Positions 5,247 through 28,066 of a DNA stretch of 52,314 nucleotides are shown in pieces. A program made the translations under genes and the position numbers. The notes under the pieces are model-generated. The model was given only the letters and a program-made list of their open reading frames with translations. It searched no databases and was not told the origin of the DNA. The stretch is from Roseibacillus sp. (lineage in GTDB: Bacteria; Verrucomicrobiota; Verrucomicrobiia; Verrucomicrobiales; Akkermansiaceae). The DNA is taken from positions 19,327-71,640 of the forward strand of contig PAQU01000026.1 of assembly GCA_002709395.1 (NCBI GenBank). The letters are read 5' to 3'. Every line of letters begins with the position of its first letter. Within the stretch, counting starts at the first letter, position 1.

Positions 5247-6635
5247 ATGTCCGGTCCCTCGTTTCTTGCCCCTGCCAACCTATTAATACATTCTCTCACC
5301 GTGAGCGGGAGCGACGTCAGGGAAGCTTTGGCAGCAGCGGAAGTGGTGCCGTCGAAAAAGTTGGGCCAGAATTTTCTAACAGACCCTAATACCGCACGCT
5401 GGATCGTGGACCAGCTGGAGCCTGGTCCGGAGGACTGTATTGTAGAGGTAGGGCCAGGGACAGGGTCTTTGAGCGCTGCCTTGGTAGGAAGGGTTCGCCG
5501 ATTGCTCCTTATTGAATACGACCGGAGGCTCGCGGAGTGGCTCCAGAAGCGTTATGAGGGCGAGGAAACGGTTGAGGTGATACATGCCGATGGGGCCCGT
5601 TTCGATTTGAGGTCTCTTTTCAAGGAGCGTCCGGTCAAGTTACTGGGGAACTTGCCATATTCCGCTGGGGGTGCGATCCTGCGTAATTTCCTCAAGCGCC
5701 CGTCTCCGATTTGTCGGGCGGTTGTCATGCTGCAGAAAGAGGTAATTGACCGTATTGTAGCGGTTCCCCGGACCAAGAATTACGGAGTTTTGTCCCTGCG
5801 CATGCAGAGCGAATGGATCAACACTCCCCTGAAGACCATCGGACCGGATGTTTTTTATCCCCGGCCAGCTATTGATTCCACTGTATTACTGTCGCAACCA
5901 AGGGGTGGAGATCTGCCCGTTTATGATGCTCGGCTTTTTGATGAATTGATACGGAGGGGATTCGCCCAGAGGCGGAAGCAGCTCCGCAAGGCTCTCCCGT
6001 CCGAGCCATCGTGGCCTGTGGTGGCAGAGACTCTCGGGGTAGCGGAAACTGCAAGGGCAGAAGAGCTGAGCCTAGAAAATTGGGTGGAATTGTGCCGGCG
6101 TTATGACTCCCATCCCCTCAGTGAAATACCGCAGTGCGGCGATGAGATTTTCGATGTGGTAGACGAAAAGGATGAGGTTATCGGGCAGGAGCGGCGGAAA
6201 GTGGTGCATGAGCAGGACCTGCTCCATCGGGCCATTCACGCTTTTATCTTCAATAAACGGGGTGAGGTCTTCCTGCAGAAGAGGTCGCGCCTGAAGGACA
6301 CTCACCCCGGGGTCTGGGATTCAAGTGCATCCGGGCATCTCGATTCAGGAGAAGATTATGAGGATTGTGCGGTCAGGGAGTTGGAGGAGGAGGCCGGCCA
6401 GAGAGAGGTTGACCTCAGGCGGGTGGCGGTCCTGCCCCCTACCGCTGAGACCGGGTGGGAATTTGTTCATCTCTTCGAGCTGAGGCAGAAGGGGCCTGTC
6501 CGTTTCCCTTGTTCCGAGGTTGAGGCGGGGCTGTGGTTGTCGCCGGATGAGGTGAATCTCTGGATTGAGAGGCGTCCCTGGGATTTTGCCAGCGGATTTC
6601 TCGCCTGCTGGAGGGCTTGGAGCGCCGTTCGGTAG
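5247..6635 (+). CDS. rsmA: RsmA (KsgA) 16S rRNA dimethyltransferase fused to a C-terminal Nudix hydrolase domain
   Basis: A two-domain protein of 462 residues. Residues about 35-285 are RsmA: Lys-Leu-Gly-Gln-Asn-Phe-Leu, the SAM motif Glu-Val-Gly-Pro-Gly-Thr-Gly and the catalytic Asn-Leu-Pro-Tyr. RsmA dimethylates two adenosines near the 3' end of 16S rRNA late in small-subunit assembly. Residues about 300-460 are a Nudix domain of the isopentenyl-diphosphate-isomerase-like/YfcD kind, starting Asp-Glu-Ile-Phe-Asp-Val-Val-Asp and with a complete Nudix box (G-x5-E-x7-R-E-L-x-E-E-x-G). One uninterrupted frame spans both. The ATG at 5247 follows a weak GGCGAG; a GTG near 5301 is an alternative. 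Enzyme identities are firm; the Nudix substrate is unknown. Confidence 0.95.
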   Translation: MSGPSFLAPANLLIHSLTVSGSDVREALAAAEVVPSKKLGQNFLTDPNTARWIVDQLEPGPEDCIVEVGPGTGSLSAALVGRVRRLLLIEYDRRLAEWLQKRYEGEETVEVIHADGARFDLRSLFKERPVKLLGNLPYSAGGAILRNFLKRPSPICRAVVMLQKEVIDRIVAVPRTKNYGVLSLRMQSEWINTPLKTIGPDVFYPRPAIDSTVLLSQPRGGDLPVYDARLFDELIRRGFAQRRKQLRKALPSEPSWPVVAETLGVAETARAEELSLENWVELCRRYDSHPLSEIPQCGDEIFDVVDEKDEVIGQERRKVVHEQDLLHRAIHAFIFNKRGEVFLQKRSRLKDTHPGVWDSSASGHLDSGEDYEDCAVRELEEEAGQREVDLRRVAVLPPTAETGWEFVHLFELRQKGPVRFPCSEVEAGLWLSPDEVNLWIERRPWDFASGFLACWRAWSAVR

Positions 6636-6673
6636 TTGCCAGTACGGGAAAGGGAGGTGAGACTGGCCGTGCT

Positions 6674-7837
6674 GTGGTTTCGGTCAGACCAGCCAGAGAA
6701 AGAAGCGTTGCCATCGCGGTGGTCGTCGCTCTGGTGCTTCATGTTGTGGCCTTTGGGGCGATGGTGGGTGGAACGATCCTGGATATTCTCACCGAGGAAG
6801 AGGATCCGTTGGCGGATGTCCCGGCTTTGCCTGAGCGAACTGAGGATGCCCTTGTTGAGTTGAATGCGGCGGATCTTCTCGCCATGCGTGAATCTCTGGT
6901 AGCTGAAGAGGAGCTGCCTGAGGTGGTTGAAGGCACCCTGCCGGATCCGGAACCGATCGAACCGCTCGAAAAGGCTCCGGTGAACTATGCGAGAACCAGC
7001 CAGGACCAGGAATCCGATTCGCCTCCGGAGGGAGCGATCCTTATCGGCGAGAGGAATACCCTGGAGGCTACGGAGTTGCCGCCAGCCAAGGATGCTCTGG
7101 AGTTGCCGAGCCAGAAGGGAGTGGAGCCGGTTCGCAATGAGAGGAACCTGTTTGATTCGGATTTCTCTCCGGGAGAGGACGAGGGGAAGACCGGTGGAGA
7201 AGACTCGGAAGCACCGCAGCCTGCGGGTGACCCCAGCTCTAATGCGGAGGACGAAATTGGTCCGGAGGAAGTCGGTAACGGGCCAGAAGTGCAGGGTTCT
7301 GTGGAGAAGGATCTGCCGTTCAAGGGAAATCCGGTGGAGGTTCCGGTCAAGGCATCCCCAGAGTTGGAGGAGGAGCTTCCCAAGTCGAGTGAGGAGGCCG
7401 GGACTGGGAGAGGGAGCGACGGCAAGGATGAGGAGCGGATCAAGGAGCAGGCAAACGGAGGTTTTCGCACGGAGTCAAAGCGAACGAGAATGGAAGGAAC
7501 CATCAGTCGTCGAGGCAAGAGTTCACTCAAGGTAGAAGCTACTGCTCTTGGTAAATACAAGGCCCAGGTGAACCGGGTGATTGAGAGTGAATGGCAGAAT
7601 CGCTGTGTGACGCATCGCGACCATCTTTTACCAGGAATTCTAACCCTTCGCTTTTATGTGGCCAAGGATGGGCGGGTTTCAGGTCTGCGCTATCTCGATG
7701 TTTTTCAAGCCAGTGCGATACAGAAGGGTTTCACAATGAAGGCGGTCCAGCAATCCAAGTTGCCGGTGATGTCGGAGGAAGTCATCAAGGAGTTAGAGGG
7801 TGAGTTGCTGGAGTTTCACATTAATTTCCACTTTTGA
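6674..7837 (+). CDS. TonB/TolA-like energy-transducing protein with long acidic linker
   Basis: About 387 residues from the GTG at 6674: a short basic N terminus, one membrane helix (Val-Ala-Ile-Ala-Val-Val-Val-Ala-Leu-Val-Leu-His) with the His typical of TonB, a linker of about 240 residues rich in Glu, Pro, Asp and Gly, and a C-terminal domain of about 90 residues with Thr-Leu-Arg-Phe-Tyr-Val-Ala-Lys-Asp-Gly-Arg-Val like TonB/TolA C termini. Such proteins use the ExbB/ExbD proton motor to act across the periplasm. The frame also opens at a TTG at 6617, inside the end of rsmA; GTG is preferred because it gives the usual short cytoplasmic end. exbB follows at once. Family is inferred from architecture. 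Confidence 0.8.
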   Translation: MVSVRPARERSVAIAVVVALVLHVVAFGAMVGGTILDILTEEEDPLADVPALPERTEDALVELNAADLLAMRESLVAEEELPEVVEGTLPDPEPIEPLEKAPVNYARTSQDQESDSPPEGAILIGERNTLEATELPPAKDALELPSQKGVEPVRNERNLFDSDFSPGEDEGKTGGEDSEAPQPAGDPSSNAEDEIGPEEVGNGPEVQGSVEKDLPFKGNPVEVPVKASPELEEELPKSSEEAGTGRGSDGKDEERIKEQANGGFRTESKRTRMEGTISRRGKSSLKVEATALGKYKAQVNRVIESEWQNRCVTHRDHLLPGILTLRFYVAKDGRVSGLRYLDVFQASAIQKGFTMKAVQQSKLPVMSEEVIKELEGELLEFHINFHF

Positions 7838-7838
7838 T

Positions 7839-8603
7839 ATGATGCGGGACCTTGGTCATAACCTGGCGGCGGAAGTAGCTCCGGAGGCCCTCCAGAGAAC
7901 CTGGAAGTTCTTTGCGGATGGAGGTTTTTTCATGCTGCTCATCGTATTCTGCTCGGTTGTCGCGCTGGTAGTCATTCTTTATAAGATGATGACCCTGACA
8001 AGATCCTCGGTGCTTCCCGGGCGACTGGTTGGGGACCTTGAGCTTCTTGAAGCACACCTGGACGACGAAAGTCTTGATGCCCTGCGAGGGGAATTCAGGG
8101 AGGGGGATTCGGTCCTGGCCCGGCTTTGTGATGTGGCCGTGAAGAATGAGGGTCGCCCATTGGCGGAAACCCAGGAAGCGGTGCAATCCAGCGCCAAGGA
8201 AGAGGTTGTGCGAATGAATGCCGGTTTGCCGGTCCTTGATGTAGTAATCACAGTTGCTCCCCTGCTGGGCCTGCTTGGAACGGCGAGTGGTTTGGTTCTT
8301 ATCTTTGGAAATACTGAAGACCTGACTTCCGGCGTGAACAATGCGAAGATCGGTGCGGGTATTGCACGGGCACTGGGGACAACTATTGCCGGAATGGTGG
8401 TGGCAGTTCCATCGGTAGTGGCTCACAGTTATTTCACGAGAAAGATCGAGACCATGTCCGCGCGGTTGGAAGTATTGCTGGGCTCGGTAATCGGCGCCTG
8501 TCAGCGCACAGGTGGCGAGGTGGCCAGGAAAGGGCTTGCGGCGGAGAGTTCTTCCCCAAGGACGACGCCACTCTCGGATTTCCCAGGGCAAGGAGTATCA
8601 TGA
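7839..8603 (+). CDS. exbB: MotA/TolQ/ExbB proton-channel family protein
   Basis: The protein has 254 residues with three membrane helices at about 25-50, 145-165 and 180-205. The conserved core reads Val-Ala-Pro-Leu-Leu-Gly-Leu-Leu-Gly-Thr-Ala-Ser-Gly and then Gly-Ile-Ala-Arg-Ala-Leu-Gly-Thr-Thr-Ile-Ala-Gly, the proton-pathway helices of ExbB/TolQ. It forms a stator complex with ExbD that powers a TonB-like arm. An ATG at 7842 is an alternative start. It begins one base after the TonB-like stop codon and its end overlaps exbD by ATGA, so the genes are translationally coupled. ExbB and TolQ cannot be separated from sequence alone. Confidence 0.92.
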   Translation: MMRDLGHNLAAEVAPEALQRTWKFFADGGFFMLLIVFCSVVALVVILYKMMTLTRSSVLPGRLVGDLELLEAHLDDESLDALRGEFREGDSVLARLCDVAVKNEGRPLAETQEAVQSSAKEEVVRMNAGLPVLDVVITVAPLLGLLGTASGLVLIFGNTEDLTSGVNNAKIGAGIARALGTTIAGMVVAVPSVVAHSYFTRKIETMSARLEVLLGSVIGACQRTGGEVARKGLAAESSSPRTTPLSDFPGQGVS

Positions 8604-9079
8604 ATTTTTACCAGCCAAGGAAGAGGAAGGAGCGGGTGCCCATTGTTCCTCTGATAGACATCCTCACAATCCTGCTCATTTTCTTCATCGTGACCCGTGG
8701 AGTTCCCGAGGAAGAGCGCTCCAAGAATCCTCCCCCGGAGCCCCGGTCGATTGTCAAGGTGACCTTGCCGGTGGTAAAAGAAATGAAGACCGATGAGGTG
8801 GTGGAGCGCCGGGCCGTGCTTGCGGTGGCGGCGGAGGGGGCAATCACTCTCGATAATTACGAGTTGGCTAGTCCGGAACTGCTTGCAGATGCCCTCATTG
8901 TCTTCCGGGAAGAAAATCCGCAGCGTAAGCTTGAGCTCGCAGCTGACCAGGGGGCAACTCTTTCCCAGTTATTCATGGTGCTGGACGCACTAACGGCGGC
9001 GGAATATGATATCAAGGATGTTCCCGCCCGTATTCGTCGTCCTCAGCCTGTTGATTTTATAGACCCTCTCCAGCCATGA
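8600..9079 (+). CDS. exbD: ExbD/TolR-family protein
   Basis: The protein has 159 residues: a short basic N terminus, one membrane helix with the essential Asp (Val-Pro-Leu-Ile-Asp-Ile-Leu-Thr-Ile-Leu-Leu-Ile-Phe-Phe), then a periplasmic domain. The Asp is the proton-carrying residue of ExbD/TolR. The start overlaps exbB (ATGA) and is one of the few here with a good Shine-Dalgarno sequence, AAGGAG five bases upstream. The end overlaps def by four bases. Length and topology are normal. Confidence 0.92.
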   Translation: MNFYQPRKRKERVPIVPLIDILTILLIFFIVTRGVPEEERSKNPPPEPRSIVKVTLPVVKEMKTDEVVERRAVLAVAAEGAITLDNYELASPELLADALIVFREENPQRKLELAADQGATLSQLFMVLDALTAAEYDIKDVPARIRRPQPVDFIDPLQP

Positions 9080-24535: not shown

Positions 24536-25225
24536 ATGTCGGACCTTTTGCAGTACGGGGGGCCAGTTCTCTGGCTCCAGGCGATTCTCGCGTTTCTCGC
24601 AATTGTGTACATTATTGAGCGCTTCCTCTATTTTCATAGCGTTCGAGTCAATGTTGCGGACTTTCTCCTGGGTATTTCGAATCATTTGCGGCGAAAGGCA
24701 TTTGCGGAAGCGATCCACGAGTCCGATCGACTTCCAGGGCCTGTAGGCCGGGTCGCGCACAGCGTGCTGATTCGGCATCACATGGAACGGAAGGACCTGA
24801 GCGTGATTGCCGATGAGGCAGTGTGCATCGAGGTGCCCAGGATTGAAAAGAATTTGCGAGCGCTGCTTGGAATTGCCCTGATTGCTCCTCTGGCGGGGAT
24901 GCTTGGAACTGCGCTTGGGTTGATGGACGTGTTTACCGAAGTTAATGAGGCTGAAGGAGAGATCGCCTATGCCAGTCTCGCGGAGGGAATTTTCCAGAGC
25001 CTCGTAACGACGGCAGCAGGACTCTGCATCGCGACCTGTGCCTACATCTTTTATCTCACCATGCTGGGCAAGGCAAAGCGGGTACTTTATCGACTGCAGC
25101 GTACCGGGATTGAGGTGGTTAATCTGATAGTCGATGCACGTACGAGTTCGGAGATTGTGTCCTTCCGGGCAGAAGTTGAGGCGCAGCAGGAAAAACAGCA
25201 GGAATCACGTAGCGGAGAATCGTGA
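24536..25225 (+). CDS. Second MotA/TolQ/ExbB proton-channel protein
   Basis: The protein has 229 residues from the ATG at 24536; a TTG at 24512 would add eight. Three membrane helices are seen at about 13-32, 115-140 and 155-185, with the core Ile-Ala-Pro-Leu-Ala-Gly-Met-Leu-Gly-Thr-Ala-Leu-Gly and then Leu-Ala-Glu-Gly-Ile-Phe-Gln-Ser-Leu-Val-Thr-Thr-Ala-Ala-Gly. It is clearly diverged from the exbB at 7.8 kb, so the two sets probably have different partners. Its end overlaps the ExbD-like gene (GTGA). It is divergent from the helicase gene. Confidence 0.9.
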   Translation: MSDLLQYGGPVLWLQAILAFLAIVYIIERFLYFHSVRVNVADFLLGISNHLRRKAFAEAIHESDRLPGPVGRVAHSVLIRHHMERKDLSVIADEAVCIEVPRIEKNLRALLGIALIAPLAGMLGTALGLMDVFTEVNEAEGEIAYASLAEGIFQSLVTTAAGLCIATCAYIFYLTMLGKAKRVLYRLQRTGIEVVNLIVDARTSSEIVSFRAEVEAQQEKQQESRSGES

Positions 25226-25704
25226 GGTCGAAGCTATCACTTCCGGAGAAGCCTTCCGCTCTATACCTTCTGGCGGTCTTGGATCTTCTTGTGGTTCTCC
25301 TGATATTTTTTGCGCTTATTCCAGCAGTTGCGCAGCAGGCGGGTATGCCTTTGAACAAGATGAAATTCAGTTCGCGAATGGATACCATTGCGCCGGGGAA
25401 GCGCGTGAGTCTCTTCGGTCGTGGTGGGATGCATCCCCGATTTCACCTGGGGAGGAACCAGATCGAATTCGAAGATCTGGCGGATGAGTTGATTCGCCTC
25501 AAGGAAGAGCGAGGGATTGAGGTTCTGGTGGCTGTATTGGATCAGGATATGAAGTTTGGCCTGCTGAGCAAGTTGGAGGGCGTAGCGGACCAGGTGGGAA
25601 TAGAGGTAATTCTGGGAGGGCGGTTTGAGATGGAAAAGGCGGGCTTCCGGAACCTCAGGGACGACTCCTCTGAGTCTTCCATATCGGAGTCTCAAGATGA
25701 GTAG
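25222..25704 (+). CDS. Second ExbD/TolR-like protein
   Basis: The protein has 160 residues starting at GTG, overlapping exbB by four bases. One membrane helix carries the conserved acid: Ala-Val-Leu-Asp-Leu-Leu-Val-Val-Leu-Leu-Ile-Phe-Phe. A periplasmic domain of about 120 residues follows, with a Ser/Glu/Asp-rich end. Sequence outside the helix is poorly conserved with ordinary ExbD, so it is a divergent member. It overlaps the next gene by eight bases. The call rests on the helix Asp, size and position. Confidence 0.83.
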   Translation: MRSKLSLPEKPSALYLLAVLDLLVVLLIFFALIPAVAQQAGMPLNKMKFSSRMDTIAPGKRVSLFGRGGMHPRFHLGRNQIEFEDLADELIRLKEERGIEVLVAVLDQDMKFGLLSKLEGVADQVGIEVILGGRFEMEKAGFRNLRDDSSESSISESQDE

Positions 25705-26509
25705 ACTGAGGGAGAAAGCGCGTGGCCTGGTTTTTAGTTGGCGCGAGGGAAGGGGGTCGCCCCGGAGGACTATGGTGGCGGTGCTTCTTGCAGTAGTGAT
25801 TTTTGCTACAGGGACTGTTCTTGTGAGGGTGGAAGGTTCAGAGCAGGTTCGGGGGCGACGGGAGGCCGCACGAATGACTGTTTTGGTACCCGGAAGTGAA
25901 GCTTCCAGACGTTGGTTGTCGTGGGCCCGGCAGGAGGCACCCGGCATGGACCGCTGGGAACTGGAATTTGATGAAGTTTTGGAGAGTCGGATGAAAGGGC
26001 TGGAGACGGCCCTGCTGAGAGAGACAAGACACCAGGCTCTCCTATATCCACCGGAAGTGATCCCGCGTCAGAGTCCTTTACCTCCTATCATTAACCTGGA
26101 ACGCCCCGCTCTTCCTCCGGTGCCCCGTGATATGGTGGAGAGCAGGAAGGGCGGAATGATCGAAGGTCAGATTACGGTGGAGATTGATGAGGTTCTGCGG
26201 GAGCGTTGGAGCGGTTCCTTCGCCCATTCGGTTTCTGGTCTGTTAACGAGGGAAGATCAGAAAGTTAAAGAGCTTCGGTTGCGTGACTTTCTCGGTATGG
26301 ACCGAAGATTTCTTATCAGTGTGAACCAACTCGGCGAGATTGAAACATGCCAGGTTCTGAATCCCGAAGAGCATGAACTCGATGGGTTGCTCTCGAGGTG
26401 GTTGCGGCGTCAGGCTCTGAAGCCGGGGAAAGAGGGCCTTTTATGGGGAAAAATTCGCGTCAAAGTGCGGGGTTTTCCGGCAGAGGTGAGTGGAATCGAG
26501 GAGGATTGA
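25697..26509 (+). CDS. Second TonB-like protein
   Basis: The protein has 270 residues from the ATG at 25697, with GGAG 8 bases upstream. A basic N terminus is followed by one membrane helix at about 25-45 (Met-Val-Ala-Val-Leu-Leu-Ala-Val-Val-Ile-Phe-Ala), a periplasmic part with a Pro-rich stretch near 110-145, and an end of about 65 residues, Arg-Phe-Leu-Ile-Ser-Val-Asn-Gln-Leu-Gly-Glu-Ile followed by an Arg/Leu helix and a final strand, which fits a TonB C-terminal fold. Unlike the protein at 6.7 kb it lacks a long acidic linker. It is the third gene of the exbB-exbD-tonB-like run and ends one base before the zinc-ribbon gene. Family is inferred from topology and context. Confidence 0.75.
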   Translation: MSRLREKARGLVFSWREGRGSPRRTMVAVLLAVVIFATGTVLVRVEGSEQVRGRREAARMTVLVPGSEASRRWLSWARQEAPGMDRWELEFDEVLESRMKGLETALLRETRHQALLYPPEVIPRQSPLPPIINLERPALPPVPRDMVESRKGGMIEGQITVEIDEVLRERWSGSFAHSVSGLLTREDQKVKELRLRDFLGMDRRFLISVNQLGEIETCQVLNPEEHELDGLLSRWLRRQALKPGKEGLLWGKIRVKVRGFPAEVSGIEED

Positions 26510-26510
26510 T

Positions 26511-26753
26511 ATGATCGAAATTAATTTTCCGCAGCTATTCACGGCCATCCTGTTCATCACGGTGGCAATTGTGGCTATTGAAGATTTTGTTGGAAGAATG
26601 CGGGAGCGGCGGACCGTTAGCTCATTACGCCGGAATCTTCTGCGATGTCGTATCTGCGGAACGTCATATCAAAAGGGGGGAGAGGAGGAGGTCCAGCAGT
26701 GCCCGGAATGCGGGAGCCCTAATATCTGTGGGCGAGACCGTCGATTGGGATGA
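26511..26753 (+). CDS. Small single-pass membrane protein with zinc ribbon (unknown)
   Basis: The protein has 80 residues and no family I can name. Residues 7-24 are a membrane helix (Gln-Leu-Phe-Thr-Ala-Ile-Leu-Phe-Ile-Thr-Val-Ala). A basic stretch follows, then Cys-Arg-Ile-Cys and, 15 residues later, Cys-Pro-Glu-Cys, a four-Cys zinc ribbon, plus one further Cys near the end. It starts one base after the TonB-like stop with GAGGAGG 6-7 bases before the ATG, the strongest Shine-Dalgarno sequence in the window. Its place at the end of the run suggests a role with this ExbB/ExbD complex. The ribbon is probably cytoplasmic by the positive-inside rule if the N terminus faces out. Confidence 0.8.
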   Translation: MIEINFPQLFTAILFITVAIVAIEDFVGRMRERRTVSSLRRNLLRCRICGTSYQKGGEEEVQQCPECGSPNICGRDRRLG

Positions 26754-26815: not shown

Positions 26816-28066
26816 ATGTCTGAACGCAGAGTTGTAGTGACCGGCATTGGCGCGATCAGTCCCCTGGGACATGATCTTGATGATACTTGGGAGGGTCTTA
26901 AGGAAGGGCGGTCCGGTGTCGGCAGAATCGAGCAATGTGATACGTCAGAGTATCCCTGCAAGATCGCTGGAGAGGTCAAGGGATTTGACCCGAGGCCTTT
27001 TTATCGTAATCCAAAGGATGCGCGGCGCTCGGATCGTTATACCCAGTTGGCTATCCCCGCTGCGCGAATGGCTCTCACCGATAGTGGAATGGATCCGGAT
27101 GCGGTGGACAAAACCCGGGTGGGGGTGATGGTCGGGAGTGGAATCGGAGGGCTGCACACGCTGGTGGAACAACATACCGTATTAATGGAGAAGGGGGCGT
27201 CTCGCGTCAGCCCTTTCGTGATCCCGATGATGATCGCGAACATTGCGACCGGAATGATTTCCATGGAGTATGGATTCGGAGGTCCCAATATGGCGATAGT
27301 GACGGCTTGTGCCACGGCAAATAACTCGGTAGGGGAGGCATGGCGTATTATCAAATTCGGTGATGCCGACGCCATCCTTGCAGGGGGAGCAGAGGCTTCG
27401 ATCAGGGATATGGGTCTCGCTGGATTCAGCAACATGCGCGCCCTTAGTTCACGGAATGATGAACCGGAGCGTGCCTCCCGTCCGTTTGACGTTGATCGTG
27501 ATGGCTTCGTGATGGGAGAGGGTGCAGGAGTGGTCATGCTTGAAGAGTTGGAGCATGCACGGAAGAGAGGGGCGAGGATCTACGCTGAGCTCGCGGGTTA
27601 TGGCGTGAGTGCCGATGCCCACCATCTCAGCGCGCCCTCGCCGGATGGGACGGGGCCCGCCCGGGCCATGCAGATGGCGATGAAGCATGCGAAGGTAAAC
27701 CCGGATGAAATTGACTACCTGAATGCACATGGGACATCCACCCCGCTGGGGGATATCGCCGAGACCAGAGCGATCAAGGTAGCCTGCGGTAATCATGCTA
27801 CCAGCGGATTGGCAGTGAGTTCTACAAAGTCAATGACGGGTCACCTGCTTGGGGCGGCTGGAGCAGTTGAGCTTGCCGCCTGTATCATGGCGGTGCGGGA
27901 GGGAGTCATACCCCCCACTATCAATCTGGAGAATCAGGACCCGGAATGTGACCTCGACTATGTGGCCAATGAGGCCCGGGAGGCCAGAGTCACGGTAGCA
28001 GCCAGTAATGGCTTCGGTTTTGGAGGGCACAATGCCACCCTGATCGTCAAGGCGTTCGAGGGGTAG
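26816..28066 (+). CDS. fabF: 3-oxoacyl-[acyl-carrier-protein] synthase II
   Basis: The protein has 416 residues and is full-length. It starts Arg-Arg-Val-Val-Val-Thr-Gly-Ile-Gly-Ala. The nucleophile Cys is in Val-Thr-Ala-Cys-Ala-Thr near residue 165; the two His are in Asn-Ala-His-Gly-Thr-Ser-Thr and Met-Thr-Gly-His-Leu-Leu-Gly-Ala-Ala-Gly. It condenses acyl-ACP with malonyl-ACP in fatty acid elongation. The usual acpP is not adjacent; acpS is at 48.7 kb. It lies 62 bp after the zinc-ribbon gene and converges with rpsU. Confidence 0.96.
   Translation: MSERRVVVTGIGAISPLGHDLDDTWEGLKEGRSGVGRIEQCDTSEYPCKIAGEVKGFDPRPFYRNPKDARRSDRYTQLAIPAARMALTDSGMDPDAVDKTRVGVMVGSGIGGLHTLVEQHTVLMEKGASRVSPFVIPMMIANIATGMISMEYGFGGPNMAIVTACATANNSVGEAWRIIKFGDADAILAGGAEASIRDMGLAGFSNMRALSSRNDEPERASRPFDVDRDGFVMGEGAGVVMLEELEHARKRGARIYAELAGYGVSADAHHLSAPSPDGTGPARAMQMAMKHAKVNPDEIDYLNAHGTSTPLGDIAETRAIKVACGNHATSGLAVSSTKSMTGHLLGAAGAVELAACIMAVREGVIPPTINLENQDPECDLDYVANEAREARVTVAASNGFGFGGHNATLIVKAFEG

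Follow-up and report, generated by a model that had tools for sequence, protein, structure and literature searches.

The locus examined here raises the question of whether a small zinc-ribbon protein, encoded directly behind genes for ExbB-, ExbD- and TonB-like proteins, belongs to the envelope complex that these genes would specify, and what such a complex might do in a genome that encodes other sets of the same type. The window, a stretch of 52,314 nucleotides of contig PAQU01000026.1 of a Roseibacillus sp. (assembly GCA_002709395.1), carries on its forward strand four genes arranged head to tail, all with open frames. These encode an ExbB/TolQ/MotA-family protein of 229 residues (24536..25225; ATG start at 24536, with TTG 24512 as a possible alternative), an ExbD/TolR-like protein of 160 residues (25222..25704; GTG start at 25222), a TonB/TolA-like transducer of 270 residues assigned by its predicted structure and termed X3 (25697..26509), and ZnR, a protein of 80 residues with a single helix and a C4 zinc ribbon (26511..26753). 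ExbB and ExbD overlap by 4 bases and ExbD and X3 by 8 bases, and a single base separates X3 from ZnR. The first-pass annotation, which described four tightly packed genes for diverged ExbB, ExbD and TonB-like proteins and an 80-residue protein with one helix and two CxxC pairs, was correct in content and position. Its statement that ZnR has the best Shine-Dalgarno sequence in the window is roughly right, in that the AGGAGG at 26499..26504 (spacing 6, within the 3' end of X3) is among the strongest, although one 7-base and three other 6-base matches precede candidate starts of open reading frames of at least 120 residues in the window. Genes named by eye around the unit are lipB, ruvC, a DEAD-box helicase, fabF and secA; neither tolB nor pal was recognised among these adjoining neighbors. 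The FabF-like gene (26816..28066, forward strand; identity by eye) is a frequent downstream neighbor in relatives and is not thought to be part of the system.

The first two proteins carry features of Ton-type motors. ExbB belongs to the MotA/TolQ/ExbB family (Pfam MotA_ExbB, PF01618, E 6.8e-20) and retains the threonine of the 'GT' motif (T125) and the threonine pair of the third transmembrane helix (T158, T159); position 158 was matched to Thr181 of E. coli by eye, and Q154, likewise aligned by eye, occupies what we take to be the position of a glutamate in E. coli ExbB. ExbD falls under the Pfam cut-off (17.7 versus 25.4 bits), and still its helix aligns with that of the family, including the proton-binding transmembrane aspartate (D21). 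Among 15 named loci, ExbB identity is 74-86% in 13 (Roseibacillus, Akkermansiaceae and Verrucomicrobiales) and 73% and 49% in the two that are more remote.

X3 is laid out as a transmembrane helix (residues about 22-43), a linker and a C-terminal domain of the TonB/TolA type (about 155-262). Zero matches to Pfam or NCBIfam models, TonB_C included, were obtained up to E 1. An AlphaFold2 model built from 35 sequences has a mean confidence of 76.5 overall and block means of 91-97 for residues 201-260, and the best Foldseek match to this model is a TonB domain (E 0.022). When the tip was aligned with VIA-align, the top 21 rows were TonB, TolA or TonB homologues (Z 6.1 to 3.4), led by the TolA domain 1tol (Z 6.1), which is tied with TonB rows; the first unrelated row also scores 3.4, equal to the last TonB/TolA row, and all Z values lie below 8. 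A TonB/TolA fold for the predicted C-terminal domain is supported by these comparisons, and the alternative that X3 is a non-TonB protein was rejected on the match of its tip to TonB and TolA domains. The transmembrane helix of TonB transducers contains an SHLS motif with an essential histidine. X3 has no such motor-coupling histidine in its helix and lacks the SHLS signature of Ton transducers; a transmembrane histidine was seen by eye in 14/43 X3 proteins and in 0/22 of those from the window's family.

The model of ZnR consists of a helix (residues 6-41) followed by four short strands (mean pLDDT 82.6). Its cysteines 46, 49, 64 and 67 are invariant in 30/30 aligned homologs, by which the possibility of a chance open frame was rejected, and the spacing CxxC-x13-16-CxxC recurs in 83 of the 84 ZnRs detected, near-duplicate species included. 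In 83/83 ZnRs, again counting near-duplicates, the 18 residues before the first cysteine are richer in lysine and arginine than the first 8 residues, a charge bias from which the N-terminus is predicted to lie outside and the ribbon in the cytoplasm. No Pfam or NCBIfam family scored above its cut-off, matches below it being mostly to zinc-binding models; a sequence search of the PDB gave weak matches (best E 0.089), and Foldseek gave none better than E 0.11. A tandem duplicate of ZnR is encoded at locus L288 (3443-3903), where the copies share the same N-terminal part and the first has one CxxC pair only.

The gene order was followed in two samples of relatives. A search with the single ZnR sequence matched 43 of 58 genomes (the window's own included), and 30 of the 43 loci were retrieved. 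In 29/30 of these, no more than 40 bases separate ZnR from X3 or the two frames overlap; at the exception (L073), ExbB and ExbD are followed by a gap of 422 bases before ZnR, and X3 was not recognised there. ExbB, ExbD and ZnR occur together in 26/30, the others being two loci without a local ExbB (L058, L077), one with X3 and ZnR only (L061) and one that ends at a contig end (L081). Further, all four genes are present in order at 13 of the 15 named loci; of the remaining two, L047 ends at a contig end, and L051 encodes ExbB, ExbD and X3 followed by FabF, with ZnR not found between X3 and FabF. At L061 (5060-6129), X3 and ZnR adjoin without a neighboring ExbB or ExbD, an arrangement that hints at X3 and ZnR being the most tightly associated pair.

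Across the phylum, a ZnR profile matched 312 of 387 genomes, and 40 of the 312 were retrieved. ZnR shares both locus and strand with ExbB and ExbD in 29/40, including one locus (L134) that leaves no room for X3 and whose ExbB is weaker; the X3 profile picked out its gene in 11 of the 29 linked loci and missed it in 18. The conservation of the four-gene order in Verrucomicrobiota, which the first-pass annotation proposed as a check, is borne out in many relatives, ZnR following X3 in the near sample and accompanying ExbB and ExbD in the wider one. Since the four ZnR cysteines are invariant and the gene order is kept so widely, the unit is, judged from sequence, more than a chance grouping. ZnR lies apart from ExbB and ExbD in 11/40 loci of the phylum sample, and separation in most relatives, which was to speak against the proposal, is not what was found. 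All 11 of these genomes encode one clearly best family ExbB elsewhere (E 2e-43 to 1e-62; next best 6e-35), with ExbD next to it in 8/11 and X3 recognised by profile in 2/11; at several of the other loci, what follows is a frame whose product has an N-terminal helix and, judged by eye, an end resembling TonB. In addition, 20 of the 75 genomes without a ZnR match were listed for a search for the family ExbB, which was clear in 12 (E <=3e-38), ambiguous in 4 (4e-30 to 3e-33) and lacking in 4 (no match at E 1e-28 or better). Of the 12 that encode ExbB, L288 does have a ZnR in the operon and L283 ends at a contig end; in the other 10, which belong to other classes, no ZnR was seen near ExbB, with some stretches short or cut. 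The description of ZnR as part of the motor is thus too strong, although it holds that ZnR is a conserved companion: because ZnR is apart in 11/40 loci and the motor genes persist in some lineages where no ZnR was found, these gene arrangements indicate that ZnR is a long-standing companion and not an obligatory subunit. A role for it as a regulator or an assembly factor, suggested in the first-pass annotation, is a hypothesis. At many loci outside the window's order (L152, L153, L155-L160, L283, L284, L286 and L289-L291), a long TPR-like protein (by eye) is encoded immediately before ExbB or with one gene in between; no such protein was seen ahead of ExbB in the window.

The genome (3.6 Mb) encodes several other sets of this type, with 7 MotA_ExbB matches and 5 ExbD matches at E 0.01, the unit's own ExbD not among the latter. 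ExbB and ExbD follow a long TPR-like protein on contig C3 and precede TPR-like proteins on C67, and on C53 a TolQ-type gene is accompanied by two ExbD matches and by a gene for a TPR-like protein (TPR assignments by eye); two remote ExbB-family loci are found on C97 and C20. The arrangement on C53 resembles the unit of the PVC bacteria (PMC12204202). On C20, a 444-residue MotA/ExbB-family protein (L215, 4468-5802; Pfam E 7e-8) begins with a zinc-ribbon-like segment of the form CPSCG...CPFCG, representing another link between a ribbon and the motor family in the same genome. The window itself contains a Tol-like set at 6617-9079, composed of a TolA-like protein (6617-7837), a TolQ-like and a TolR-like protein and followed by a peptide deformylase, beside which neither tolB nor pal was recognised. 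The TolA-like arm has a histidine in its hydrophobic segment, in contrast to X3, and its TolR-like partner has the transmembrane aspartate. With this set in place, the idea that the four-gene unit is the genome's only Tol-type set was rejected, as was the idea that X3 is its only TonB, given a canonical TonB_C protein on contig C64 (E 1.1e-25), the only PF03544 match in the genome up to E 0.1. No MotA_ExbB match was found on C64. The view is supported that the unit is a diverged set of the Ton/Tol type, distinct from the window's other set and accompanied by a conserved zinc-ribbon protein.

Three papers (PMC12215075; PMC12204202; PMC9389320) present the transmembrane aspartate of TolR, ExbD and MotB as essential or conserved in this motor superfamily. 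In the family studied here, D21 is present in the window and in all 16 rows assigned to the window's genus (one genome being represented twice). Outside the genus, 65 rows have a family ExbD, of which 36 carry aspartate (including L221, which has a gap at this position in the alignment and was read by eye), 28 carry N, S, A, T, C or G (some from weakly matching ExbDs, such as L216 and L220 at E about 4e-5 and 6e-5) and 1 (L149) is not assignable. The working motor assumed at the outset is consistent with D21 in the window, but the aspartate is replaced in 28/65 relatives outside the genus. Paralogous ExbDs have it in 30/30 cases from 13 genomes (by pattern for most and by eye for the rest); these come from the top-scoring PF02472 places in the 13 genomes and therefore lean toward canonical ExbDs. 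On an ExbB tree of the 'quick' kind, with 25 of 67 inner branches open and 66 labelled rows (40 with the aspartate and 26 without), its state changes 15 times in all, at least 8 of these being forced by starred branches, a count that does not separate loss from gain; aspartate is the rule in the superfamily. The tree omits 12 loci that nearly duplicate the window's genus or a further row, together with rows that offered no usable ExbB (L058 and L077 among them), which is why it holds 26 and not 28 rows lacking the aspartate. ExbB has Thr or Ser at position 158 in 40/40 rows with the aspartate versus 14/26 without (Fisher 2e-6), a link that is not significant when counted by independent pairs on starred branches (3.5 versus 0 of 8; median p 0.25). 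A compensating acidic residue was looked for in the ExbB of members lacking the aspartate, and none was established: column 186, which lies outside the helices by our reading, is the only one more acidic in these rows (21/26 versus 22/40; uncorrected p <0.05), and seven other columns at that threshold, position 154 included, are less acidic in them.

These results bear on what the unit might be. One proposal, that it is just a diverged Ton energiser for TonB-dependent receptors and that the small gene behind it is unrelated, would account for the predicted TonB/TolA-type tip of X3, for the 3 Plug-domain receptors in the genome and for a canonical TonB gene on a contig without a MotA_ExbB match. 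It is nevertheless unlikely, as that same canonical protein matches the TonB_C model whereas X3 matches no TonB model, and genomes that have lost the aspartate (G042, G046, G049, G055 and G020) show between 3 and 14 Plug matches. Somewhat less doubtful is the explanation that ZnR, as a zinc-ribbon protein of the membrane, has a housekeeping role and is merely co-transcribed with the motor genes. Seven of the 11 ZnRs that lie apart adjoin rpoA/rplQ and/or guaA (names by eye), and, with no ZnR found in L051 or near ExbB in 10 of 12 genomes, the linkage may be one of convenience. Against it, linkage is widespread, with linked rows on both sides of the midpoint root of the ExbB tree (70 rows) and 3 changes sufficient to explain its distribution, L061 retains X3 and ZnR side by side with neither ExbB nor ExbD adjoining them, and ZnR and ExbB are co-absent (ExbB at E 1e-28) in 4/4 of the close genomes examined, which are of the same class or family as the window genome.

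The replacement of the aspartate could also mean that the members without it are decaying copies devoid of function, an explanation considered very improbable. The loss of Thr/Ser-158 from ExbB only in rows without the aspartate (12/26 versus 0/40) would fit decay, and the description of MotB D22N as a protonation mimic (PMC9389320) was also counted in its favor. Yet 8 of the 11 rows without the aspartate in the window's order have all four genes recognised in order, the zinc ligands are intact in those 11, and at least 8 separate changes, some of which encompass whole clades, are unlike recent decay. A more tentative possibility, though one to be taken seriously, is that the family represents a conserved complex of the 5:2 type, spread throughout the phylum and accompanied by a zinc-ribbon adaptor in the membrane, that gave up proton drive several times; as such a 'pseudo-motor' it would retain ring, axle and arm and may act as an envelope-spanning scaffold or sensor governed by ZnR from the cytoplasm.

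Known systems resemble the unit in part. Like Ton (ExbB-ExbD-TonB), it would combine a ring protein, an axle with a transmembrane aspartate (in the window), an arm anchored in the membrane and extending into the periplasm, and a C-terminal domain of the TonB/TolA type; unlike Ton, its arm has no SHLS histidine, its tip scores below the family models, it includes the additional ZnR gene, and many relatives have lost the aspartate. It shares with Tol-Pal (TolQ-TolR-TolA) the three-part layout and, tied with TonB, the top structural row, and is distinguished from it by the separate Tol-like set with transmembrane His and Asp at 6617-9079 and by the lack of a tolB or pal recognised by eye nearby. 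In the gliding machinery of Myxococcus (AglRQS-Glt), GltJ has an N-terminal cytoplasmic zinc ribbon, such that a ribbon and a TonB-like domain reside in one protein, whereas here they are encoded by two genes. No statement on the zinc finger of GltJ was found in the available parts of the open-licence PMC matches listed; the likeness to this machinery includes a motor with TonB-like partners (PMC3169522). The von Willebrand factor A (vWA) force transducers of the PVC bacteria adjoin tolQR-like genes, often with a TPR gene, in motor-plus-arm operons of undefined role in Verrucomicrobia (PMC12204202); their tip has a vWA fold as opposed to the TonB/TolA fold predicted for X3, and the word 'zinc' is absent from the main text of that paper. 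Among the open-licence PMC matches listed, no zinc ribbon was found in papers on Ton or Tol, so that the first-pass statement that the small protein is foreign to known Ton/Tol systems was not contradicted within these matches, and their available parts gave neither an ExbD family with Asp-to-Asn replacement or a zinc ribbon beside ExbB/ExbD nor a recognisable description of the four-gene unit or of ExbDs lacking the aspartate. Similarly, the parts examined of papers on Akkermansia mutant screens, consulted for a possible connection to mucin uptake, contain nothing on these genes.

The reading that we favor, with a probability of about 0.55, is that the unit encodes a separate envelope complex of the Ton/Tol type that is old in Verrucomicrobiota, in which ZnR acts as an adaptor and whose lasting role is structural or signalling, with proton drive optional. 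From homology, we infer that ExbB would form a ring in the inner membrane with ExbD as the axle inside it, and X3, by homology and predicted structure, would be the arm that spans the periplasm with its TonB/TolA-type tip. ZnR would sit in the inner membrane with its ribbon in the cytoplasm, most likely as an adaptor with a part in assembling or gating the complex; alternatively, it might tie the complex to a cytoplasmic partner. A proton-driven stroke is plausible in the window organism because D21 of ExbD and T125, T158 and T159 of ExbB are kept. Since many relatives have lost the aspartate and yet keep the genes, the role retained throughout may be to bridge the envelope, structurally or for signalling, with proton drive being optional.

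The analysis adds to Verrucomicrobiota a Ton/Tol-type system with a zinc-ribbon companion that is predicted to face the cytoplasm. Moreover, a conserved family in which the state of the aspartate has changed at least 8 times while the genes were kept provides natural variants for asking what role such a complex may have without proton flow.
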